26,914 nt of DNA from Saccoglossus kowalevskii (Eukaryota; Hemichordata; Enteropneusta; Harrimaniidae): contig NW_003141310.1 of NCBI RefSeq assembly GCF_000003605.2, positions 20,687-47,600 of the forward strand. Direction: 5' to 3'. A program made the translations under genes and the position numbers. The notes beneath the pieces are model-generated. The model ran no database searches, had not been told where the DNA came from, and saw only the letters and a list, made by a program, of their open reading frames with translations. Below are positions 759 to 26,914 of the stretch, piece by piece. How positions within the stretch are numbered: the first letter of the stretch is position 1; each line of letters opens with the position of its first letter.

Positions 759-2900
759 TTAATGCAGTTTATGTTTCTCAAAACCCACTTTCAGATACCG
801 TGTCACATGTCTAATTTAGTTAAGATAGTCAGTATTAATAAGAATAATGAACTTGTTGATATTGTTTTCAGACTGTAAAGTGGGGATTTCCTTGGTAAAT
901 TCAGTGTACATAATACATAATATCCCTTTCATCAGTGTAATAGCTACAGTCTGTAATAAAATGAACTTCGTCTTAAATACTTTCACTCCTACACTTATCA
1001 CAAATCCTGTTCTCTGCCGGATTTTATGTCTTTTATGTCTGCCTACTTCTATTGTCTATTATTTAACAGTTGTAGGTATTTAGCTGGATTAATATCACTT
1101 TTAAGTAGACTGTAAGATCTGAGTTTGGCATCTGGTCTCTTGAGATTATTAATCCACATATTAGTATGATGGTTTTTAGTTTTCTGGTAGATTGCATTAC
1201 TAGAAACAGTCAGTAGATCAATATTATACAGGTCTTTAATTTTGTTAATGTCTTCCAACCATGATCCTTTATAGCAGTTGTTTTCAAGTTCTTTAACTGC
1301 ATGGAAAGTAAAATTAATTGGACCATTGTATTTAGTGTTTTGGTAGTACTTGAAGGCTTGAATTTGAATCTTTGAAATTAAAGGTAGCCTGTCAGTTTCA
1401 ATGCTACAGCCTATTGTACTACTTCTATTATTAATATTCAAAATGTGCCTACAATATTTTAGGTGAAATGTTTTAGTAACAGTGGTGTCCAACGTTTCTG
1501 TCCTAACCGATATACCCTATATCTCAGATGCATATAGTAAAATAGGTAGTTGTAACATTTCAAAAAGTTTGGCCTTAAGTTTAAAGTTGTTGTAGTTGTT
1601 ATCATAAATATTAGCCATCATTCATTCTGCTTGTCTAGCCTTATCTGAGAGTCTCTCTATAGTATGTTCAGTATTGCTGCTTAATGTCATACCCAAGTAT
1701 GTGGATGTCTTAGTATGGTTTAGTGTCATCTGATCTCTGCTTGAATGTAGACAATGTCATGGTCTTAATAGTGGTGTTGACTTCCAAGCCCCATTCAGTA
1801 GTATAATTGGAAGTTGATGTGAGAACAATATCATCTGCAAATAATAAACTAGATATTTTCATCTTATCTAGCTCAGGTTGGTCAGTAGTAGTCTTATTTA
1901 TTACTTCAACAAGGTCAAGGTGAAAATACTGAATAAAGCGGGACTAATCCTTGTTTGACTCTATTGGTTCTTTGAAATTCGGGTGTAATTTTGTCATTAA
2001 GCTTGACATTGAATTTAATATTTGAGTACATACTTTTAATAATGTTATATAATAAGCCACTGATGCCATTAATTTGCAATTTGTATAAAACACTTCTTTA
2101 GGTCCACAAAGCAGAAGAACAGTTATTTATTTTTAGACTGGTATTTTTTCACCATAGTCTGTAAAGTTAAAATATGATCTATGGTCCTGTGTTTTTTCCT
2201 AAAATCTCCTTGATTCTTGTGGAAAATGTTGTTGTCTTCAAGATGTTTGTTAATTCTTCTATATCATAAGTATCATAGTGAAGATCTTACCAATGAAACT
2301 ACTGGTTGAAATCCCCCTATAGTTTCCTGGATTCAGTGGATCATCTTTCTTGTGAATTGGAGTAATAGTGTTTTTATTCCACATATCTGGATATGATCCA
2401 GTGAGTAGGATATGATTGTATATTTTTTAAAGTGCAGCAATTAACAATCCCATCCATTCCTGAAGATTTCCCAGTTTTCAATTTATTGAGAGCCTTACTA
2501 ATTTCTTGTGTTGATATCTCCATGTTTAGAGATATGTTGTGATTATTGTTTTCCTCCTGAATGAGTAATTGGTTGCTGGTATGTTGCAATTATTACTAAT
2601 GGATTGTAAATGTTTCATCCATTCCTCAGCTGCAATATATGGTAGCTGGTTAACATTCATTTCGTGTAGTTTTTAATCACTTTCCAGAAGTCCTGGGTAT
2701 TTTTTCATGGAATTCAACTTGTCAATTGTCTCATGAAAGTTTTTCCTTTATTGTTTCTGCAGGTTCTTGACAAATTTCTTAAAAGCCTTATTATTTGAAT
2801 GTTAGGTATGTCTCATTGCTGTCTCTTGCTGGCTCATGTATTTTGAAAAGCATGATATATTTTTGTAGATGGATGCCAGTATTTGAATAATAGTCATGAA
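759..2900 (-). pseudogene. Decayed non-LTR retrotransposon (LINE) ORF2, copy A
   Basis: Read on the minus strand, from high to low coordinates, this is the 3' two thirds of a LINE ORF2 broken by many stops and frameshifts. In order: part of the endonuclease-RT linker (about 2600-2830), the RT entry motif with LKTGKSSGMDGI (2446-2481), NPGNYRG (2313-2333), the catalytic box FADDIVL with FADD at 1830-1841, a thumb-like region with PILLYASEI just before a stop, and a longer open stretch (1492-1049). After that come a CDKC pair (991-1002), then His and Cys (about 945-963), giving the C-terminal CCHC-type zinc motif. The reading ends in YLKVGFEKHKLH and a stop at 759-761. The domain order and motifs are typical of jockey/CR1-like LINEs; the exact clade is not determined. 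The endonuclease domain is missing, as in a 5'-truncated insertion. It cannot be functional. Confidence 0.85.
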
Positions 2901-3395
2901 CCATTCCATTCATGACATATAAATCGACAAATTTTATCTCCGATATGTATTACAGCAGATTGTACTTATTATGCAAATGCAACTTTTACACCACATTACT
3001 TCATACCCTGATTATTCAAATGTGATCTTTAAAATGTAATTATCTTAAGCCATGATTACGAATATAGTAATATTCGATCTAGCAGTGGTGTAGCTAACAC
3101 CTTTCTACTCAGGTGTGAAGATACAACCTATGGTTCTCCACTGCAATGTTTGGCTACAAGGCAGACCTTTCTTCCCCATCCACCCTTCCCTTCACAGTAT
3201 ATTTGGCTTTCTTTGCTATAATTTTAATCTTTTTAGTGTAGGTTTTATAGTAGTATAGTATAGTATATTTGACACTAAATCATATATTTAGGTACATTAT
3301 CTGTGGTCAAAAGACATTAAATATAATTAAACACAAGTACACACAGGAAACAAAAGAAAATACATAAAAGACTAAAGTCTAAATAAAATTACTTA
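2901..3395. other. Spacer between LINE relics, no gene seen
   Basis: AT-rich sequence between the two retrotransposon relics. It holds a short imperfect TAGTA-type run at about 3246-3268. I found no open frame or motif that extends either LINE. Confidence 0.4.
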
Positions 3396-4790
3396 TATAT
3401 TACTTACGTCAACAAATTTACTAGCACCATTGGCAATGAACCCATCTATTGAACTTAAAATTTATGGAAACATTTGTTGTTTTGATAATGTACTTTCATT
3501 ATAAATGCTAACTGTATTCAGAAATTCAGTACGAGCGTTTGGTATACCAGTATGGTTATAGTCTAAGAGTGCATGGATTTCATTGGCAATAGCCCCATTA
3601 TTACAAAGTTGGCACTTTCTTTCCTCTGTAGGTACCCCTTGATATCTAAGTTTTTTAATTGGTAGGGTATGTGCAGACATTTTGATGCAGCTGATTCTAT
3701 GTTGTACATTTTTTACTAGATTCAAATATGGTTCAAATTCATATGTAGTTTTGTACGTAATGTATTATTTTGGGTTGACTGGACTGTTTGTAGTCAAACA
3801 TTTACAACATAGATTTCTTTTAATTTTGACTTAAGCAGAGTATTGTCATCAGCATCACCAGTTTTAGTTATCTCCTCTAATTTATTTACAATTGTTGCCC
3901 ATGTATTACCTTTGATTTTGGTTTCTGAGATGTATGCACAATGTACTAAATGACTGCAATTGCCGGTGTTATTTTCAATTCTTTTCTTGTATTTCATTAA
4001 TTGTGCACATATTTCAGTAATGACAGGATAACTTCCAAGTTCAGTTTTCTTTGAAATGTCTTTCAAGTTCTTCCTGATAGTTTCCAGGTCATTGTCAAAC
4101 CATTTATGTTTAGTATTTCTTTTTGTATTTTTATTAGAATTCTTAATTTTGACAAATATCATAGATTTGTCTGCACCAGAATAAATTATGTCACTGAACT
4201 CGAATACCAAGCTATCACCGTCTTTGTGTTCAAAGTTAGTTCCCAGCAATTTTTTAATTTTACTAGGGAATTAAGTTGCGAAATGATTTTTATTTTGAGC
4301 TTGATTTTGAAGAATTGTTCTAGATATATGTTTTGTAAGGAAGCAATGAGGTGTCAATGTCCTTGTTATATAACTGTTATATAACAATGATCTGGTGGTG
4401 GTTTAGCTGGTTAACTCTAAAATATCTAATGGAAGATCTGTTGAACAATAAAATAGTCTACCTGACTTACACAATTGTACTGGTAACATGTAACTTTACC
4501 AGATAGATCTCCAACTATTCTACTGTCATAAATTAGTTTTCGTGTATCTGTATCCATGGTGTGTCTAATGTCATTATTGAATTCTATGTATGGTATTATA
4601 GCTGCAACTTGCAAGTGTAGATTTAAATAGAATTACTAGACCTCCAGAGGATTTTTTTATTCTTCTGCCTGTCTAATCTAAAATACAAATAATTATCTGG
4701 TACACTAATCTTAACACTACTGTCTGTATGATTGTAGAATTTTCTTCACAGGTATGTATTTACCCCAAGTTAGGGTTGTTCGTTCAGCCA
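3396..4790 (-). pseudogene. Decayed LINE ORF2, copy B, with the RT core deleted
   Basis: A second minus-strand LINE relic. From the 5' side it shows fragments of an apurinic-type endonuclease (KSSGGLVILFKS near 4620-4670, then GDLSGKVTCYQYNCVSQVDY at 4453-4512, matching the region before the conserved DY and SDH motifs). The linker follows as a 151-codon open stretch (4249-3794) containing KWFDNDLETIRKNL. Without any RT core, the sequence passes to the C-terminal part: YEFEPYLNLVKN, then SAHTLPIKKLRY and the zinc pair CQLC with NEIH (3573-3614). Reading dies out near 3396 after GASKFVDVSNI. The RT palm, including any xADD box, is absent between linker and zinc motif, so an internal deletion has joined the two ends. 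Copy B cannot be the missing 5' half of copy A because both contain a linker and a C-terminal zinc motif. Confidence 0.75.
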
Positions 4791-10764: not shown

Positions 10765-12324
10765 TTAAGGTAGCGAGACTATTATTTGTGTTGAAAATTA
10801 CGATTTTCACATTTATTTATTAATTGATGAAATGCACTATAAACTTTCATATGATAAAGTCAACATAACATAGAATGTCATGTAAGTTGGTTAAAATGTA
10901 TATTTTCTGAAGGGAAGCAAGGCAGCCTCAGTAGTGTTTTCCAAAATCAACAATACAGGTTTAATCTGTGTGCCTATAAGTTTCAAAGATAAACTCAAGA
11001 CAAAGCAATGTTAGGATGTGTTATCAGTAGCTATCTGACACACAATGAGTGTTTCCAAACATTCCAGTGGTTTGTCTCCGCCCCTGTTTGTTTCACAGAT
11101 TAGTCATTTGCATATGAATGTGTCAGACACAAGGTCACCCAGCCACTGAAAAAATCATTGATTNNNNNNNNNNNNNNNNNNNNNNNNNNNNNNNNNNNNN
11201 NNNNNNNNNNNNNNNNNNNNNNNNNNNNNNNNNNNNNNNNNNNNNNNNNNNNNNNNNNNNNNNNNNNNNNNNNNNNNNNNNNNNNNNNNNNNNNNNNNNN
11301 NNNNNNNNNNNNNNNNNNNNNNNNNNNNNNNNNNNNNNNNNNNNNNNNNNNNNNNNNNNNNNNNNNNNNNNNNNNNNNNNNNNNNNNNNNNNNNNNNNNN
11401 NNNNNNNNNNNNNNNNNNNNNNNNNNNNNNNNNNNNNNNNNNNNNNNNNNNNNNNNNNNNNNNNNNNNNNNNNNNNNNNNNNNNNNNNNNNNNNNNNNNN
11501 NNNNNNNNNNNNNNNNNNNNNNNNNNNNNNNNNNNNNNNNNNNNNNNNNNNNNNNNNNNNNNNNNNNNNNNNNNNNNNNNNNNNNNNNNNNNNNNNNNNN
11601 NNNNNNNNNNNNNNNNNNNNNNNNNNNNNNNNNNNNNNNNNNNNNNNNNNNNNNNNNNNNNNNNNNNNNNNNNNNNNNNNNNNNNNNNNNNNNNNNNNNN
11701 NNNNNNNNNNNNNNNNNNNNNNNNNNNNNNNNNNNNNNNNNNNNNNNNNNNNNNNNNNNNNNNNNNNNNNNNNNNNNNNNNNNNNNNNNNNNNNNNNNNN
11801 NNNNNNNNNNNNNNNNNNNNNNNNNNNNNNNNNNNNNNNNNNNNNNNNNNNNNNNNNNNNNNNNNNNNNNNNNNNNNNNNNNNNNNNNNNNNNNNNNNNN
11901 NNNNNNNNNNNNNNNNNNNNNNNNNNNNNNNNNNNNTTTACCAACGAGTTGTGGTTTGAGTTGGGGGCAATGTGACTAAAACAGTAATTGAAATTCAGCA
12001 CACTATTTTTTAAAACGCGTTGCTTGAATAAAACTGACCAGACACATTCAATTTACCAGACTATTGAACAACTAGGAAAAGTGAAAAAAATACTTCTTAT
12101 CGCCAGCGTAAATGCGTAATTATTTTTTTTACAGAAAAAGTAATTTTTCACCTTTGATTGAGTAACGCGTCGTAGAATGCAGATACGGGCATGCAAAATA
12201 CACTTGTGAAAAGCTTGAAATCTGGCGATTCTAAAAATATATACTTTCCCGGGTCTATTTGTAGTCATTTAGTCACAATTAGAAGATGAAAAAAAGTATG
12301 CAAATAATAGTCTCGCTACCTTAA
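10765..12324. mobile_element. TTAA-flanked element with perfect 20-bp terminal inverted repeats
   Basis: TTAA (10765-10768) is followed by GGTAGCGAGACTATTATTTG (10769-10788). The exact reverse complement occurs at 12301-12320 and is followed by TTAA (12321-12324). Counting TTAA, which is its own complement, the match is 24 bases without mismatch. A 4-bp TTAA target duplication is the hallmark of piggyBac-type cut-and-paste transposons, although their ends usually begin CC, so the family is uncertain. The span is about 1.56 kb, of which 773 bases are unsequenced. The visible 375 bases on the left and 384 on the right contain no recognisable transposase, so it is either non-autonomous or hides its ORF in the gap. 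Confidence 0.65.
11164..11936. other. Assembly gap (773 N)
   Basis: A run of N inside the TTAA-flanked element. Apparent long open frames across it are artefacts of the unknown bases. Confidence 0.99.
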
Positions 12325-13997
12325 AAAACATTATCATGATCATATCAACTATTTGAAATAGCAACCAACATAATTTTATTTATATTATTAGTAAAAAAAA
12401 CGGCCTTTTTTATAATGCATTCTTAACATTCCTATTTTCCAGCATCAATAACTTTTACATAACTCAAGCGAGTGCTATGTTTAGGGATTTCGGTGGTATA
12501 CAAATAACTTATTCAGAATGTTAGTAATTTGTGTTGTATTCAACAACTGTAATATAATAAAAAAAACTTTGGACATAATCTCGAACCACGGTATGACACA
12601 GTAGGACGGCGACCCAGCACTCCATTATTCTTCATGTTATAGATGTATTATAACAAATATGCTGGTACATCATTTGACAGCTCTACTGGTCGGCATCACA
12701 CAGTACTATAATAGCATCTGCGTACAAGTATCATGAGATATTTCTTTCTATCAGCAACGCGGAATTTTTTCAACTCTATCTATCATAAAACCTCATTGCA
12801 ATTATTAAGACATTGCCTTTCGTAAATAAAAAATAGATAAATAATATTCATTTTTAAAAAGAGCCGCGTGCGCCAACATGCGTCAGAGTGAGTGTACACA
12901 GTGCCTATGTAAAATATTAAGTGTTTTTTATCTTCAAATCACAATCTATTTACAAACTACTACTATAATCATATATAATTATAACGAATTGTCAAATATT
13001 AATTGAATTCATAAATCGCTAGTGTGTTTTATTGATTGATTTATTGATAGGTTCGACTTCTAATTAACCGTCCGTGACCTGTATCTGACTCAATTCATAC
13101 TCGTATCGTGACAACAAATAATTCAACATCAATATCGGACACCAGCTGAGAATAAAAAAGAATTTACAATAGAACTAGTAGTAGTGGCAATATTGCTATC
13201 GAAATAAGGACCTTTGGAGTAAAGTTATGGTAATGTAGAAATTGAACGTTGATCATGTAAATTTTCAAAACAAAAAAGTGTTTGACATAACCGCATATGT
13301 GGACAGAGGTTTACTATTTTACTATTTTAAGTTTCGTTATGCCAAGAATTTGTTTACAAGAAGTTTCTAAACGATGTTTTGCTTAACGCTGCACAGTAGG
13401 TCTGGTTGTACGGTGTCACTCAAGATTCACTCTTTTGTAGATAAGAAAGGGGATAATAACACTGATTATGTGATACAAAGCAGTTGTCAAAGTTAACTCT
13501 ATTCATATAAGTATTACAATACATTTCCAGGAGGTCTGCTACTTGACAATTGAGACATATTGTCATCTCCCGATTCAAAAAAAACACGTGTCAACAATAC
13601 ACGTATGCCGTAACACGCCTACCTGAAGCTGGGTCAACAGGGGATCCGCCTATTTGAATGGAACTAACCCACCTATTATACGGTGATTAACGCTATGACG
13701 TGCCTTATTATCATCCCACCACAGGAACGTTAGAAATCTTTTCATGTGACCACTTCACTGATATATTACATGCGATGCCCGCTGTCACTTTCACAGTAAT
13801 ACAATGGCATTCTGATGCCACCACACCTTACGTATTACACTGGTCTGTCGCCCGTTGACTGTATCCGACCAACATTGTATTAACGGAAATCCTGTGTCCG
13901 ACCTTCAATCGTTGTGTATGCTTGCGTGATATATTCAAATGTATTTCCTCGACGTAAAAACAATTCTTGGCTGTTATTATTTTTATTTTTAAAAAAT
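12325..13997. other. Upstream flank of the transporter gene, no gene seen
   Basis: AT-rich, with no coding pattern on either strand. The two minus-strand open frames at 13828-14221 lie antisense to exon 1 of the transporter and its 5' flank and are shadows. The 5' UTR and promoter of the transporter presumably lie in or beyond this stretch, but I see no decisive signal. Confidence 0.4.
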
Positions 13998-16886
13998 ATG
14001 GATCTGCAACGAAGGAAGTCAGAAATCCAACCTTCATGGAATATCTCTGCAGATGGTGGATGGGGATGGTTTGTTGTGATCGGCAGTAATATTGCAATAA
14101 TGATATGTGCCGGACTACCTCCAAGTATGGGACCGGTATTGTCAATTTTATCAGAAGTCTTCGATTCCAATGTGTCAGATACGTCATGGGTACTTTCCTT
14201 GGCAATTTGTATGGTCAACATAACAGGTACAGTATATATTCAGAGATTTCCAATCAGAGGGAGATATTTTAATAACTCGTTATTGTAGTATATTCTTCTT
14301 GTAGGATCAAGCCATAGTAATTACTCACTCTGATGGGTAGATGCGAAATCTGAGTAAAGTCAGATTGTTTGCTTTGTCAATATTGTTTAAATGAATTAAT
14401 ATGATGTATTGCTTCATAACAGCAAGACACACGGTACACTATCGAATTCGATCTGGTTCTCACTCACTTGCACAAACCCACGATATATATATATATATAT
14501 TACATAAAGATGTGTACATTGAAGCGCGTGCCGCATGGGATTTTCATTAACCGAATACAATAGAAACTGTTAACAGCGATGTACGTAACATTATAGTAGT
14601 TCTGAGCAATCTTGTTATTCACTATAGGACCATTGGCGAGTGCATTGACTAACAAGTTTGGAACACGTTCAGTGGTGGCGCTTGGTGCCATGTTATCATG
14701 TATTGGAATGATTATGAGTTCATTTGCGTCAAGTGTATCGTATTTATGTATCAGTTACGGTTTTATAACAGGTACGATGTCATACGTTATGTATTTACTT
14801 TGTGATAATATCTGAGTAGTGTCAAATAACAAATGTTAAACCAAACAAATGTCATGCAAAACTATATACAAAGCTATATTCTATTTATTAAATTATTATT
14901 TCCACAAAACGCATCGCTGAATGGGGAAGGATCACTTTTTAGCCAATCGCACGTTTTTCGTGTTTTGATTTTAAATACAATTTACTGTCATTTGTGAATA
15001 TTTATAGAATGTGAAAAGCAGCATATATTAACATGCATTGCTGAACCATTGTCAGTTGTACATTGGGATGTGATTCATACAGGTTAACATGACAAAAAGA
15101 CGTCATTTTGGAAATTATTGCTGCTGTATAGCAATATTAATTCAAGTGTCCGAGAATTTGTTACACTTAACAGTCTGTATAATAAACAAGTATACGTATT
15201 TGTAACGAGCACAGGACAGGACAGTAATAAAACAATAATATTGTGTTACAGGAATTGGTTATGGCCTAGCGTTTACGCCAAGTATCGGTATTCTCGGGGT
15301 GTATTTCCATCGTCGCTTTGCCCTGGCTAACGCCCTCGCATTTACCGGTACCAGCACTGGATTCTTCATCTTTCCGTCAGTATTACGCTATCTTCTCGAC
15401 ATCTATGGATGGACTGGTACTTTTGTCGTACTTACAGGTCTTTCTGCAAATCTATTTGTATGTGCTGCCCTGTTTCAACCCCGAACATGTCACATCATTG
15501 AGACAGGTCGTCAAACTGATGACTCAACGACACCACAATCTCCCAGATTATTTAGCGTCTCCAATTCTATGGCTCATTGTACATATATAGAGAATAGTGA
15601 AACGTGCGACGTTGGTGTCTCTGCTTACAATATCCCGTCATACTCACCACACTGCCATCGAGGGTCGGTCCTTTCAAATCACAGAAATATCGTGTCTTGG
15701 AAAAATGAACTGAATAAAAACAATTCCAATTGTCGCGGCTCGAAGACAAGTGGTGATGAAAGTCAACATTATGGTAACGTAGCAGACACTAAGTTGGGCA
15801 GCACAGGGAACCTTATGCTGTCTGAATTGAAGAATAATGATCAAACCCGAAGGCGACTCTCAAGTTCTGTTAATAAAAGACAATCTATGTCCCAAAAATT
15901 GTTAACTTTCCTCGACTGGGGTCTATTTTGTGAAAATCGATTATTCACAGGATTTACCTTCACTCTTTTCCTTATCGGTATTGGTTTTAACGTTTCCCTA
16001 GTACACCTTGCATCACGAGGTATCAGCTACGGTTTAGCGCCAACGGAAGCGGCACTCATCTCTTCAGTCGTCGGAATATCAAACGTTGTTGGCCAATTTG
16101 GACATGCGTGGTTGGTACAGGCAAAATGGACAACAGGCTCGCAGTGTTATTTCACCTCGTTGTTTGTGTGTGGTGTGGCGTCACTGTTTAGTGTGTTAAT
16201 GAAGAGAGCCGTTGAGTACGGTATATACTGTGCCATTCTTGGTCTGACTAGTGGTGTATACATGACAGTTATACCGGTAGTCTTAAAAGAATATGTCGGC
16301 AATGCTAAGATGACAGACGCATTAGGACTCTCCCTTCCAGCCCTTGGAATTGGCAGTCTGATTGGCCCACCCATTTCAGGTAAAACACATTGTTACATGG
16401 GGTGGATGAGTGCCATTCGTTGTGTGGTTGTTTTCAATAACACAACAATAAATATATAACAAAAATGACGGACGACTCTGACCACAAAAAGGGTGAATTC
16501 TTACATACAGTCTTTTGTTGTTGCTGTAGTATTTTTGGTGTTTTTTTTCTATAAAGTACTATGCTAGTGTATAAATGGTGTAATGTAATTTGTAATTTCT
16601 ATTTACAGGGTGGATCTTTGACAAAACAGGGAGCTATAACGGTCCATATTATTTAGTTGGATGTACGTTCCTATTATCTACGACGTTTGTCTTCGCAGAG
16701 TTATATTACTGCCGATGGTGCACCAAGTGTGACGATAGTATTCAAGATGATAAAACAGCGCCACCTACGTTACACAATTGTCTGACTCCACACCAAGAAT
16801 CTGAAACTTCATATGCGAATACTAATTTTATATACGTAAATACTGCTTTCCTGGCCGATAACATTATGTCAGATACGTGGATTTAA
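13998..16886 (+). CDS. Monocarboxylate transporter-like protein (SLC16/MCT family), 4 exons
   Basis: Coding exons are 13998-14226, 14628-14771, 15252-16379 and 16609-16886 (1779 nt, 592 residues plus TAA). All introns are GT-AG and phase 1, each splitting a glycine codon. The ATG is the first in its frame and has A at -3 and G at +4. The MCT signature DGGWGW is at residues 19-24, leading into TM1. TM2-3 contain GPLASALTNKFGTR (77-90), and the TM5 motif YFHRRFALANALAFTGTSTG is at 142-161. TM1-6 end near 199. A long Ser/Thr/Asn-rich loop (about 200-345) precedes TM7-12, which start at DWGLFCENRLF (346). The C-terminus is hydrophilic and ends DTWI. The family carries monocarboxylates and related solutes across membranes, usually the plasma membrane. 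By my alignment, the MCT1 residues Lys38, Asp302 and Arg306 (rat numbering) correspond here to Pro42, Asn402 and Gln406, so proton-lactate symport is unlikely. It is closer to the orphan MCT group (MCT9/12/14-like); its substrate is unknown. Confidence 0.92.
14483..14501. repeat. (AT)n microsatellite in transporter intron 1
   Basis: An uninterrupted AT dinucleotide run of about 19 bases lies within the first coding intron. It is likely length-polymorphic. Confidence 0.9.
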
Positions 16887-22000: not shown

Positions 22001-25000
22001 TCTTCGCATTTATAGATGGATTTTTTTTTCAAACTTGGTACATACATTGGATATTATGGGACCTACTAGTAGATAATCATGGATTGTTTAATCCAAAATG
22101 GCCCCCAGCATAGGGGTTTTTTTTGCCAAAGGGAAATCACAAAATCATTCTTCTCCTTAGCAAAGTATCAGTAATCTGTTTTTTCAACTATCCACATGTT
22201 TTATAGTTTTCTGTGTCTTTCCTTAATTCCTCCATAGGCAGATGTAGACTTAACAAAAACCTGTCTTTATGACTTTCATCTTGAACATGGTGGTAAAATG
22301 GTGCCATTTGCTGGTTTTAGTATGCCAGTACAATACAAAGAGGGACTCTTAGCAGAACATCTACATACTAGGAACACCGTATCATTATTTGATGTCTCAC
22401 ATATGCAGCAAAGTAAGGTTTATGGTAAAGACAGAATCCAATTCATAGAAAGTCTGATTGTGGGTGAGTGTAGAAATAACATTTAATATAAATGAATTAC
22501 TGTGAATGTATTAATTATTTACTAGTATTTATTTGGCTCATTTTGTAACAACAAAAATACTCTGTACTAAATCCAAATAAGACAAGAAAACTGGTGATGG
22601 TTGTAGAACCATAACTGCCTCAGCTCAAAGATTTTATGTAATACAGGGGAATGTGAAGGGAAATGTATTGTAATGTTACCTCTGTGTAATTTACAATATA
22701 TCTGCATTAACCTTTACTGTGAAGGACAATATGGGAATTGACTTAAATGACTGGTAAAAGCAATGCTGGTCAAATTCTGCAAAATAGTAGTTAGAATTTC
22801 CAGATACGCAATCAACACATTGTGAGATATCAAAATATGGATGATAAACAGCAAGTGATATTTCCAGAGATGTAGTTGGAATTGAAGCAAAGGAGTGACC
22901 TATTAATCCATGAAACATACTCACACATATCCGTACATATCATCCTGTCTTATTGTGTGTGGACAAAGCTGTCATGCACACAATCGAAAAAATATGTTAT
23001 TACTAGAAAATAATTATGAACAATAAAAACTGAGAATAAAAACTATGAACAATTAATAAGGAAAATATGTGATTTGCTATGCAGTTTCCAGAAAATTATT
23101 ACAAGTCCCAGAAGTGCATATGAGTCGTCAAAACGTACAGTTTGGTGACAGTTGGGAATGATACCAAGATTTAACAATTCCATGAGAACATCGCAATGTT
23201 CTGTTAACACATAAAACAGATGTGCATTGGTTAAATTTTGTATAGTTTCAATAGGCATACAAGCACCTGTATATATTTTGACAATAAACCCCTCATTCAC
23301 ATTGTGCAAATACAAACAAGACATTAAACCTTCTTGATAGTAATATGATAAGTGTTGAATAAACCCAAATGAGAAGTCTGGAGTCACGGCGAATACTTCT
23401 AGTGAGTCCACCCCTCTAAAAACGTCATTACTGTGCCAATGACATTGAACTTTGCTCTTCCATAAAGTAGCAGTTTCCATCTTCAAATAATCAAAATAAA
23501 CTTGATACCCTGGCGAAGCACGTCTATTGTTTCACAACGACTGTCCCAAGGGATTTTCGTCTTCTAAATTTCCCAAGATAAACGTCCCAGGGTTGTTTTG
23601 TCTACTAGAAGGACATGTTTATTGGCAACATTTCTTGTATTAATTTCCATTGCACAAAAAAAGAAGCAAATATTGTTACTGAAGCACAGAATTTGCATAA
23701 ATTTTTCTCCCCGGCCATTCACGCAAACTGCAAACGTAGTCTTTTACCTCATCCCTAGTGGTTGACACTTTGCAACCACCTTGATGGATGTATTGTGACG
23801 TATTTTGACCCCGGATTCTGACCTTGCGTTCTGGCTACATGTACTGCCCTTTCATACCAGTTCAATTTCCTTTCATTATTACATCCAAATGTCATGTATT
23901 TACACATCATGTTGAGTGGCGAGACTGAAGACGAAGGATTTAATTTGCATACTGATTTGTTGACCATCCAGCTTTATTATATCCTGTGTAATCTATAAAT
24001 AGTGTTCGTTACGCGAACGCGATCGAAGCACAAACAAACATTACGCTATGGAATTTTAAGCATGTCTCTGTGTTTTAATAACATAATATAATCATGGGAA
24101 GGAGTTCTAAAAATGAAAAAACCTAGTCGCCAAAAACACTGACACTGTTAAAAGACATCTAATTGGCAGTGACCTGAGTGGTTTGAAGACAAGCCTATTA
24201 ACAGTTACAACTAAAGTTTTGCGGCGCAAAAAAAATTGTCCTGAGTGATTATGAGGTGACACCGACAGTTCAGACAACGACGACGAGATGGAAATCTTGG
24301 ATACAGACGCTGGTTCATAGTAGAATTACAGTCTGTAAATAAAATTGGCAGTGATATATTGATGTGTCGTTATTGTAAAAAGAAGAAAGTCATTTTGGCA
24401 GAAAACACAAACACCCGTCATGGCTGGGGAAGTCATCTGTACTATAAGTATACAAATTCAAAATGCAAGTCCGTGACTGACATTTTTCCCGATGTCGAAA
24501 AAAAGTGGACATGTGGACGATGTAAACCGTAAGTTGGTGATCGCAGCTTGTGGCATTGCAAAAGGTCATGGTCAACGCTACATTCCGTTTTTCATGGGGA
24601 GGAAAAAAACAGTGCTGACTTGGAGCTAATTGATTATAACAAAGGCAGAAAGAAATGCAAACATATCTGTACTTTAAGGCATGTATATCTCGTAAGTAAA
24701 TATATGCTGTCATGAAGGCCCGCCCTATGTTTAGAGAACCGATTGTACTGTTGATGCTGTTCAACATAACAAAGGGACATGAATAAATTAATTGCACGGT
24801 ATGTCATCTTGTTCAGCACCCACTTTGTCACTTTTTAAGAAACAAACAACCATTTGTTCACGATATACCGGTAACAGTCCACGCAGATTAGATACTTGTA
24901 TATTTACAAAGTATGATCGAAATGGCAGACATTTGGTCATTAATTACCTGTTTATAAGTGGCCAAATTCGAAGAAACGTTTTATTGAGTTTTTTTTTGGT

Positions 25001-26309
25001 GTTTTTGAACACTGAGACACATCAAAACCAGCCTATACCAACTCATAAACATCTAGTTCCTTCCATGTAAGAATTAATATTGGGAATTATGTTCATCTTC
25101 TAGTTTGAATAGGGAAAAAACTTTGCGTACCAACATGCTGACATTGCTAAACAAATCTTGTCAAAATAGTGCTGTTCATGTTAACGTGGTCGAACGAAAA
25201 ACCTGTGATATTTCTGATTCTTGGGGGTTCATAACAATTCAAGTCAAATATGTAACAACTAATGACTTTACTTAATGAAAAGTATAAAACAATGCTTCAA
25301 TTTTTGTATATAAAGGATTGTTTTTTGCACTGAATAGCGTACATTGTCATGCATTTACGATCGAAAAAGCATCCATAAAAATCGTCCAATTTAACATTAA
25401 TAAAATGCGGTGTGACAAATAACAAATCAGCCCACCAATTTTTAATGATATGTTTCGATCATAAAATGTCAAAATCGAAGACAAATATTTGTTTCAAGTT
25501 CATTTCAATCACCCCTAAATCAAACAAGAAACATTTCTGGGTAAAGGTATGAAAATTTGTTGCGAAAATGTGTCGCTGCTGGTAAAATAGATGAATTAAA
25601 GAACGACTTGCCGGCTAAAATATGACCTTATACAGATATCTTGATTAAAAAATTATGTGAAAAAGCACGAATTCTGGAATAAACAACTAAGTTGTAAAAA
25701 ACACATAGCAATGACAATGTCAAAAATAGTGGCCGGCTGCGTACTGATCACGTGACAATGCTTTGCCCATACCCGCAACATGCCTTTGCCAGGGAAGGAG
25801 ACAAATTCACACCTAATACAATGACCGTTTCCAGACTGGGGATAGAGGGATTGTGGTTGCAAGTACGACTTCCTGCTAACTCTGGAACATTAAATTTATC
25901 ACTGTTTTCAATTTAGTCATTTATACTTACAGGTGATGTAGCAGGGCTACCTGATAACACTGGTACATTATCACTGTTTTCAATTTAGTCATTTATACTT
26001 ACAGGTGATGTAGCAGGGCTACCTGATAACACTGGTACATTATCACTGTTTTCAATTGAGTCATTTATACTTACAGGTGATGTAGCAGGGCTCCCTGATA
26101 ACACTGGTACATTATCACTGTTTTCAATTGAGTCATTTATACTTACAGGTGATGTAGCAGGGCTCCCTGATAACACTGGTACATTATCACTGTTTACAAA
26201 TCACAAAGGTGGAATACAAGATGATTTAATAGTTAGTAAAACAACAGAAGATTATCTTTATATTGTATCTAATGCTGGCTGTATAGACAAAGACATTGCA
26301 AATATGAAG
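19049..26309 (+). CDS. AMT: Aminomethyltransferase, mitochondrial (glycine cleavage T-protein), exons 1-3, 3' partial
   Basis: Coding exons are 19049-19156, 22238-22463 and 26149-26309; the gene continues past the right edge. They give 165 residues, roughly 40% of the usual ~400. Exon 1 (residues 1-36) is an Arg- and Ser-rich leader without acidic residues until its end, fitting a mitochondrial presequence. Exon 2 carries [16 protein letters not shown] (47-62), SMPVQY (64-69) and SLFDVSHM (85-92). Exon 3 carries [13 protein letters not shown] (117-129), GGIQDDLIV (132-140) with the Asp pair that includes the catalytic aspartate, and YIVSNAG (149-155). These match T-proteins, which transfer the methylene group from aminomethylated H-protein to tetrahydrofolate and release ammonia in the mitochondrial matrix. 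Intron 1 is phase 0, intron 2 phase 1, and the exon 3 donor phase 0. Gln135 replaces the usual hydrophobic residue before DD. The exon 3 acceptor at 26149 was chosen because it is the only one that continues directly into the conserved TNHKGG, but three identical-looking acceptors precede it (see the 72-bp array). Confidence 0.95.
19157..20127. other. AMT intron 1, unique part
   Basis: Intronic sequence with no gene or repeat I can name. The short antisense open frames (19297-19759) lack motifs. A G-rich stretch at about 19590-19615 is the only compositional feature. Confidence 0.4.
20128..20900 (+). repeat. Dimeric intronic repeat, copy 1
   Basis: It starts near GGGGATAATTAGTCCCC and a perfect hairpin (20154-20181), then reads 'gtccgtgaatgcatgatcc', 'attcatggaccaatt' and 'acatatgcacatcaatttgt'. 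Two tandem subunits begin at GATTCAAAATGGCC (20311 and 20617, 306 bases apart). Each has blocks resembling AAATGGCCGACTGG-GGCCATTTT and 'tttgttcaaacttggtacatac'. The open frame at 20341-20577 is a by-product. It shares its head and both subunits with copy 2 (21527-22100), and its reverse complement resembles the 5040-5893 array. Confidence 0.75.
20154..20181. repeat. Perfect 11-bp stem-loop
   Basis: CAGTCCAAAAT (20154-20164) and ATTTTGGACTG (20171-20181) are exact complements around a GGGGGA loop. It sits at the head of the intronic repeat, copy 1. Confidence 0.85.
20901..21526. other. AMT intron 1, spacer between repeat copies
   Basis: AT-rich intronic sequence with nothing coding. A 64-codon antisense open frame (21074-21268) is unsupported. 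Confidence 0.35.
21527..22100 (+). repeat. Dimeric intronic repeat, copy 2
   Basis: It opens with a GTCCGTGCGTGTGTGCGTGCGTCCGG-like stretch (about 21549-21574), then 'atgcccggaccaatcacaatcaaactt' and 'acatatgcacatcaatttgtttcac', as in copy 1. Subunits start at GATTCAAGATGG (21672) and GATTCAAAATGG (21930), 258 bases apart. Same orientation as copy 1. Confidence 0.75.
23043..23480 (-). CDS. Unrecognised antisense ORF in AMT intron 2
   Basis: From ATG at 23480-23478 the minus strand is open for 145 codons to a stop at 23043. The same frame stays open upstream to 23531 (a TGA lies at 23534-23532), so the open stretch is about 162 codons. The residue mix looks protein-like rather than low-complexity: [35 protein letters not shown] and [18 protein letters not shown] recognise no domain. 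A further 77-codon minus-strand frame (22924-22691) may belong to the same unit, since both run the same way and are 118 bases apart. It could be a nested gene exon, a transposon relic or a decayed retrocopy. Length alone in AT-rich DNA makes chance possible but not favoured. Confidence 0.25.
   Translation of the reverse strand: METATLWKSKVQCHWHSNDVFRGVDSLEVFAVTPDFSFGFIQHLSYYYQEGLMSCLYLHNVNEGFIVKIYTGACMPIETIQNLTNAHLFYVLTEHCDVLMELLNLGIIPNCHQTVRFDDSYALLGLVIIFWKLHSKSHIFLINCS
24094..24660 (+). pseudogene. Broken Mutator-like transposase N-terminal fragment in AMT intron 2
   Basis: It begins [10 protein letters not shown], then a stop. In the frame from 24329 it reads [18 protein letters not shown] and [10 protein letters not shown] with KCKS, which fits the 'CxxC ... 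G.(a/s)(t/h)L ... C' pattern. After a frameshift, from 24519, it reads [18 protein letters not shown] then QRYIPFFMG. The order 'zinc-like CxxC, then a (D/N)xNrr.v.A...G.G...l..f' is that of the N-terminal domain of Mutator-like transposases that are abundant in invertebrates. At least one stop and one frameshift interrupt it, and no DDE core was seen downstream. The family assignment is from memory of the pattern. Confidence 0.5.
24661..25855. other. Remainder of AMT intron 2
   Basis: No gene recognised. The open frames at 24390-25070 are short and mutually antisense, without motifs. I could not extend the transposase relic into this stretch. Confidence 0.35.
25861..26196 (+). repeat. AMT: 72-bp tandem array spanning the AMT intron 2/exon 3 splice site
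   Basis: Each unit holds the start of exon 3 plus the last bases of intron 2: acceptor ...TTTATACTTACAG, then GTGATGTAGCAGGGCT... and ...ACATTATCACTGTTTTCAAT. Exon-start copies lie at 25933, 26005, 26077 and 26149, exactly 72 apart. The fourth runs into the full exon. An older, diverged copy is recognisable upstream (about 25866-25920, CTTCCTGCTAACTCTGGAACATTA) but without a clear acceptor. Units 1-2 have GGCTACCTG and units 3-4 GGCTCCCTG (both Leu codons). Because 72 is a multiple of three, every acceptor keeps the AMT frame. The minus-strand 63-codon open frame here is a mirror of the periodicity, not a gene. Confidence 0.95.
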
Positions 26310-26391
26310 GTAATTAGGAATTGAATAATCCATTGTGATTCTGATTACACTGTCACTGTGGTTGCTTACAACGAGATTTTGTTTTTCTTTC

Positions 26392-26914
26392 ATAATGAAA
26401 TGTCAATGGTGAGGTAAAAGGGTTACCATATCTGTTGTTATCATCATCGTTGCATCGCTGGCATGGAAATATATGGTAATATCATCGGCCCCATGTATTT
26501 TTACCTTGCTCGTACCATCAAAGATGGAAGGGAAAGGTATATTAAGGGAAACATTTTGTCCGGCGTTAACGTTGTTGTTGTTGTCGTCGTCGTCGTCGTT
26601 AATAATTATTATTGTGTGCATAATAACTTTACTAATTCTATTCCAAACTTCATCAAACTTGGTCACCTTATTCATCAGTATAAAGTTATAATTATATTAT
26701 ATTATTAAAATAATGAACAATGGTGAGGTAAAAGGGTTACCATATCTGTTGTTATCATCATCGTTGCATTGCTGGCATGGAAATATATGGTAATATCATC
26801 AGCCCCATGTATTTTATTAAAATAATGAACAATGGTGAGGTAGAAGGGTTACCATATCTGTTGTTATCATCATCGTTGCATTGCTGGCATGGAAATATAT
26901 GGTAATATCATCAA
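26392..26914 (+). repeat. Triplicated segment at the start of AMT intron 3
   Basis: Three near-identical copies share TGGTGAGGTAAAAGGGTTAC and then 'atctgttgttatcatcatcgt', 'gctggcatggaaatatatgg' and 'gccccatgtatttt'. The TGGTGAGG block is at 26407, 26721 and 26833. Copies 2 and 3 are in 112-bp tandem register; copy 1 is 314 bases upstream of copy 2. The third is cut by the window end, so more copies may follow. Each carries donor-like GTGAGG and GTAAAA (GTAGAA in copy 3). Open frames across it (26403-26708, both strands) are by-products. Confidence 0.85.
26571..26600. repeat. (GTT)n(GTC)n compound microsatellite
   Basis: About four to five GTT triplets pass into five GTC triplets, between copies 1 and 2 of the intron 3 repeat. 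Confidence 0.85.

Follow-up and report, generated by a model that had tools for sequence, protein, structure and literature searches.

A 72-bp tandem repeat across the junction of intron 2 and exon 3 in an aminomethyltransferase gene of Saccoglossus kowalevskii

The aminomethyltransferase (AMT) gene of Saccoglossus kowalevskii carries an array of 72-bp units in which the 3' splice site of intron 2 is itself repeated, and the question raised by this locus is which of the repeated sites would serve the mRNA, and with what effect on the protein. The window, meaning the whole stretch of DNA analysed, is 26,914 nt long; positions refer to it unless they are preceded by a locus number. The coordinates of the features are collected in Table 1.

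The AMT gene and its repeated border

The protein encoded by exons 2 and 3 contained a Pfam GCV_T domain (E 4.5e-39) and aligned without a gap across the 26149 junction to the aminomethyltransferase structure PDB 1wsr (E 9.9e-49), which we take to be the human enzyme. An insert at this junction was also absent from four further structure alignments (five alignments from 10 matched chains). The domain and the colinearity with AMT structures identify the gene as AMT. Exon 2 ends in GTG G at 22463 and is followed by the donor GTGAGT from 22464, in phase 1. Exons 4-8 lie downstream, at L011 3749-6404, and when joined to exons 2 and 3 they gave a frame that was open to the stop codon. The codon counts reported below cover exons 2-8 only, starting from 22241, as exon 1 was not located.

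A GCV_T profile search of the 572-Mb assembly returned 21 matches on six contigs, four of them within this AMT gene, whose exon 2 was the best match in the genome (1.7e-19). The frames around four of the 17 other matches (L019, L021, L022 and L024) were inspected by eye and rejected as a second AMT; they resembled other members of the family, presumably sarcosine- or dimethylglycine-dehydrogenase-like or related proteins. As these four look like other family members, the AMT at this locus may be the only one in the genome and constrained. The other 13 of the 17 matches, C4173 and C4134 included, lie outside the inspected set, so that a second AMT may be found among them.

Table 1. Features at the AMT intron 2/exon 3 border, in window positions
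Feature	Position	Strand	Remarks
AMT exon 2	22238..22463	+	start at 22238 (after ATAG) or 22242 (after GCAG), not certain
AMT intron 2, given the last acceptor	22464..26148	+	
Candidate decayed fifth copy	25868..25891	+	20/24 bases shared with the unit's exon part
Copy 1 of the 72-bp unit	25896..25967	+	type A (TTTAG, CTA); acceptor end 25932
Copy 2 of the 72-bp unit	25968..26039	+	type A; acceptor end 26004
Copy 3 of the 72-bp unit	26040..26111	+	type B (TTGAG, CTC); acceptor end 26076
Copy 4 of the 72-bp unit	26112..26183	+	type B; acceptor end 26148; exon 3 starts with its second half
72-nt GT...AG pseudo-introns (n = 3)	25933..26004, 26005..26076, 26077..26148	+	
TTATCACTGTTT	26184..26195	+	identical over 12 bp to the array's left end; breakpoint homology or partial copy possible
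AMT exon 3, ordinary acceptor	26149..26309	+	161 nt; donor GTAATT

A first-pass annotation had placed a 72-bp unit over the AMT intron 2/exon 3 border. This was borne out by alignment of the copies and by Tandem Repeats Finder, which reported a 72-bp repeat at 25896-26199 with 4.2 copies, 98% matches and 0% indels. The units are nearly identical and lie head to tail, as in a minisatellite or VNTR. Counted from the left end of the array, the acceptor falls after base 37 of each unit, leaving 35 bases beyond it; the approximately 47 exon bases annotated as repeated are accounted for by these 35 together with a 12-bp continuation at 26184-26195. When the array was cut in register, copy 1 was identical to copy 2 and copy 3 to copy 4, giving the order A-A-B-B. 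The two types differ at two of 72 positions, with T or G at 25914, 25986, 26058 and 26130, and A or C at 25949, 26021, 26093 and 26165.

The 12-mer TTATACTTACAG ends at 25932, 26004, 26076 and 26148. The identical acceptors annotated before 25933, 26005, 26077 and 26149 were thus recovered, those positions being the first exon bases. By itself the 12-mer is common, occurring in the genome at 56 places on the forward strand and 54 on the reverse (76 and 70 for the reversed control), and it is the 72-bp repeat, not TTATACTTACAG alone, that goes beyond chance. The predicted RNA structure of the array was of ordinary stability (z -1.18), being equalled by 13 of 100 shuffled sequences.

The sequence TTATCACTGTTT that starts every copy recurs after copy 4, where the likeness runs for 12 exact bases. 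This match at both ends of the array may represent the homology that started it. The segment directly to the left of the array (25868-25891) is in register with the unit except for a 6-nt insertion. One of 2000 shuffles reached its local score, and among 491 overlapping segments of the window six, located at two places, tied it; in an anchored test, 23 of 5000 shuffled sequences reached its score, as did 244 of the 24,696 66-mers in the window (~1%). These values lend moderate support to the suggestion that the segment may be an older, decayed copy of the unit. The near-identity of the copies in the array suggests that the array is young. The A-A-B-B order can result from slippage unit by unit, from exchange between alleles, or from an assembler joining two alleles.

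Several other features surround the gene. AMT intron 3 contains a second tandem array at 26698-26913 (112-bp unit, 1.9 copies) with N directly after it, and a stretch near 26405-26500 appeared by eye to be related to that array. The N run extends from 26915 onward for 10.7 kb, and a further 773 N occupy 11164-11936 of the window. Frames in intron 3 at L011 1-2860 resemble, by eye, a retroelement that includes a reverse transcriptase and a recombinase-like segment. Downstream of AMT, L011 8461-9181 holds 4.7 tandem copies of a 158-bp unit at 81% matches. Frames upstream of AMT at 13884-16886, on the plus strand, presumably belong to a gene for a monocarboxylate-transporter-type membrane protein (by eye), and broken reverse-transcriptase-like frames at 1049-4270, on the minus strand, presumably to a decayed LINE-type element (by eye).

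Reading frames and splice-site scores

All four acceptors enter one frame. The joined exons 2-8 comprise 377 codons when 26149 is used, 401 with 26077 and 425 with 26005, consistent with the annotated addition of 24 or 48 residues without a stop. From 25933, a TAG is reached after 18 residues of new sequence, as the annotation had also predicted and as was seen on the joined exons. The array is therefore a set of tandem acceptors sharing a frame, three of the four staying open to the gene end and one meeting a stop. The prior chance that a period is divisible by three is one in three.

GTGATG follows directly after each of the four acceptors, so the sequence between any two successive junctions forms a GT...AG interval. 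Combining any CAG|GT with a CAG further along the array gives six pairs, all of which yield a GT...AG interval of 72, 144 or 216 nt; three of these end at 26148, and their removal leaves the ordinary exon 2/exon 3 mRNA, while the other three end at an inner acceptor. The array shows two of the features of intron gain by border duplication, namely a duplication over an intron-exon border and GT and AG at the ends of the unit. The annotation had read the locus as an enlarged NAGNAG choice. The four identical in-frame acceptors in that reading stand, but the adjoining donor-like GT sites, which make the unit a pseudo-intron, had been overlooked. Intron gain or growth in which an AG|GT border is duplicated in tandem would fit at least as well.

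Donor scores were obtained with a rough matrix, in which CAG|GTGATG scored 3.23 relative to 4.56 for the exon 2 donor and 4.39 for the exon 3 donor. The donor regenerated after joining of exon 2, TGG|GTGATG, scored -0.71 relative to the same two values. By these scores, the unit donor is mediocre as long as it sits in the pre-mRNA and becomes poor after the joining of exon 2. Recursive removal of units after intron 2 splicing would consequently be weak, and removal before intron 2 splicing is easier to credit. With a matrix of the same rough kind, the acceptors of copies 1 and 2 scored 3.62 and those of copies 3 and 4 scored 1.49; extra AG dinucleotides at 25916 and 25988 scored 1.40. The higher scores of copies 1 and 2 count against a simple preference for 26149.

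Preferred and competing explanations

Which splice sites are used we infer from the sequence of the locus. Our preferred explanation, held with moderate confidence, is that a young, minisatellite-like duplication of the AMT intron 2/exon 3 border is tolerated as extra intron, with the ordinary mRNA still being reached. In each unit, an intron tail ending in the CAG acceptor is followed by the first bases of exon 3 (GTGATG...), and the gene would tolerate the array because the added 216 bp would behave as additional intron. The ordinary mRNA could be produced by two routes. The spliceosome may take the last acceptor, 26149, next to which lies the complete exon 3 together with its donor; alternatively, the units may be excised as introns of 72, 144 or 216 nt, with the same mRNA as a result. 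Against this explanation, a 72-nt intron whose branch point lies about 30 nt from the AG (a guess by eye) would be close to the lower end of animal intron sizes. Isoforms with 24 or 48 additional residues would be minor products. We favour direct use of 26149, or removal of units before intron 2 splicing, over the long isoforms. The array probably lengthens intron 2 in a neutral or near-neutral way, and there is a genuine chance of alternative AMT isoforms.

A variant of the preferred explanation, which we consider unlikely, would make the array a self-erasing, expandable intron end, in which each unit is spliced out as its own small intron and occasional escape yields proteins with 24 or 48 extra residues. 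As the units are GT...AG intervals bounded by identical AG|GT borders, such an intron end could grow or shrink by 72 bp without changing the mRNA.

It is doubtful that the inner acceptors are used to an appreciable extent as in-frame alternative sites, producing AMT with 24 or 48 extra residues and, from 25933, a truncated and probably degraded message. The sites are identical over 12 bases and the 401- and 425-codon frames are open to the gene end, as is the 377-codon frame, and the insert resembles native AMT sequence; among 641 stop-free tails taken at AG sites throughout the window, one reached the local score of this likeness. However, this likeness was spotted post hoc, an earlier global test was ordinary (148/672), and the matching codons of the insert and the native sequence agree at 8 of 18 bases (by eye). 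The insert would also sit in the folate-binding domain, at a junction that is insert-free in the five alignments (10 chains matched), and the shared frame had the one-in-three chance noted above. Whether the intron tail derives from coding sequence of exon 2 (IESFILT compared with IESLIV) was considered separately on the same local, global and base-level values (1/641, 148/672 and 8/18), and the likeness was treated as chance. We give less credence still to the idea that the first acceptors, being nearest to exon 2 and the best scoring, act as poison sites whose frequent use leads to TAG, decay and a copy-number-dependent drop in AMT. The stop 18 residues after 25933 and the higher scores of copies 1 and 2 (rough matrix) point in this direction; however, 25933 is the only one of the four acceptors to meet a stop, 26005 scores equally and stays open, and a strong loss of AMT would be selected against if this is the sole AMT gene.

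The copy number itself may be an assembly error, arising if the two alleles of a heterozygous individual, A-A in one and B-B in the other, had been fused one after the other. This possibility arises from the A-A-B-B order, with the same two differences, and from the sequence ending nearby, N beginning 715 bp past the array and inside the second, 112-bp tandem array. A whole-genome DNA search with 25830-26330 found a single place, with no separate haplotype contig, which is in keeping with such a joining; on the same result, a second haplotype elsewhere in the assembly was rejected. However, slippage or unequal exchange between alleles yields the same order, and the N stretch may stand for sequence that was withheld rather than for a gap. 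We regard the error as improbable, and the figure of four copies in the animal is not secure. Even with such an error, two copies per allele would remain, so that the duplicated splice border would still be real.

Relation to known tandem acceptors and intron gains

NAGNAG and other tandem acceptors place several acceptors in a row in one frame. The AMT acceptors are likewise serial and in one frame, but they are spaced 72 nt apart rather than 3, and a donor-like site follows each.

A closer parallel is the potato RdRp gene, for which the portions of PMC4974935 drawn on here describe a duplication of an intron-exon border that made a new intron, the exon part having provided the donor and the parent intron the remaining signals. 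In AMT, as in potato RdRp, the duplication crosses the 3' border of an intron, the copies inherit the acceptor and the intron tail, and the exon part supplies the donor. The AMT array differs in having four copies instead of two, and in that its donor-like GT abuts the acceptor, so that an entire unit amounts to a pseudo-intron, which need leave no new piece of exon behind; it is also known from the sequence of one genome alone, in contrast to the new potato intron (PMC4974935). The same portions describe fission yeast genes in which repeated 24-bp AGGT units are spanned by an intron (PMC4974935). The AMT array shares with such Rogers-type AGGT duplications a multicopy direct repeat with an AG|GT in each unit, and an intron spanning several units may leave the protein unchanged; unlike in the Rogers type, the AMT AGGT straddles an existing intron border rather than lying within an exon. 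Tandem duplication of a proto-splice site has been proposed for seven Drosophila introns, as stated in the sections of PMC2891723 consulted.

The adjoining GT also recalls recursive splicing. RS-exons are exons that start with a donor-like sequence, and recursive splicing of hundreds of them is repressed by the exon junction complex; their share is similar across the deuterostomes examined, from sea urchin to human, and their donors were scored by MaxEnt with a species threshold (PMC6224609, in the passages used). In Drosophila, the outcome of recursive splicing is influenced by donor strength, exon sequence and earlier splicing, according to the passages used from PMC8605326. As in these systems (PMC6224609, PMC8605326), the AMT acceptor adjoins a GT and the exon start is donor-like, but the regenerated AMT donor scores low and the steps would be of 72 nt within an array, as opposed to steps through a long intron. 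Among the matches listed in a search of the literature on splice acceptors in minisatellites or tandem duplications, judged by titles and the starts of abstracts, there was no such array.

We place the AMT array with the known tandem-duplication intron gains, as an unproven case; its unusual part is the four-copy form running from AG|GT to AG|GT. Recent intron gains with a known source sequence are few, as noted in the portions of PMC4974935 drawn on here. A four-copy array that offers an AG and a GT in every unit, within a conserved enzyme, provides a natural test of what becomes of duplicated borders, which may turn into new introns, alternative acceptors or neutral intron length. If the units do erase themselves as small introns, the locus would represent intron multiplication in progress at minisatellite scale.
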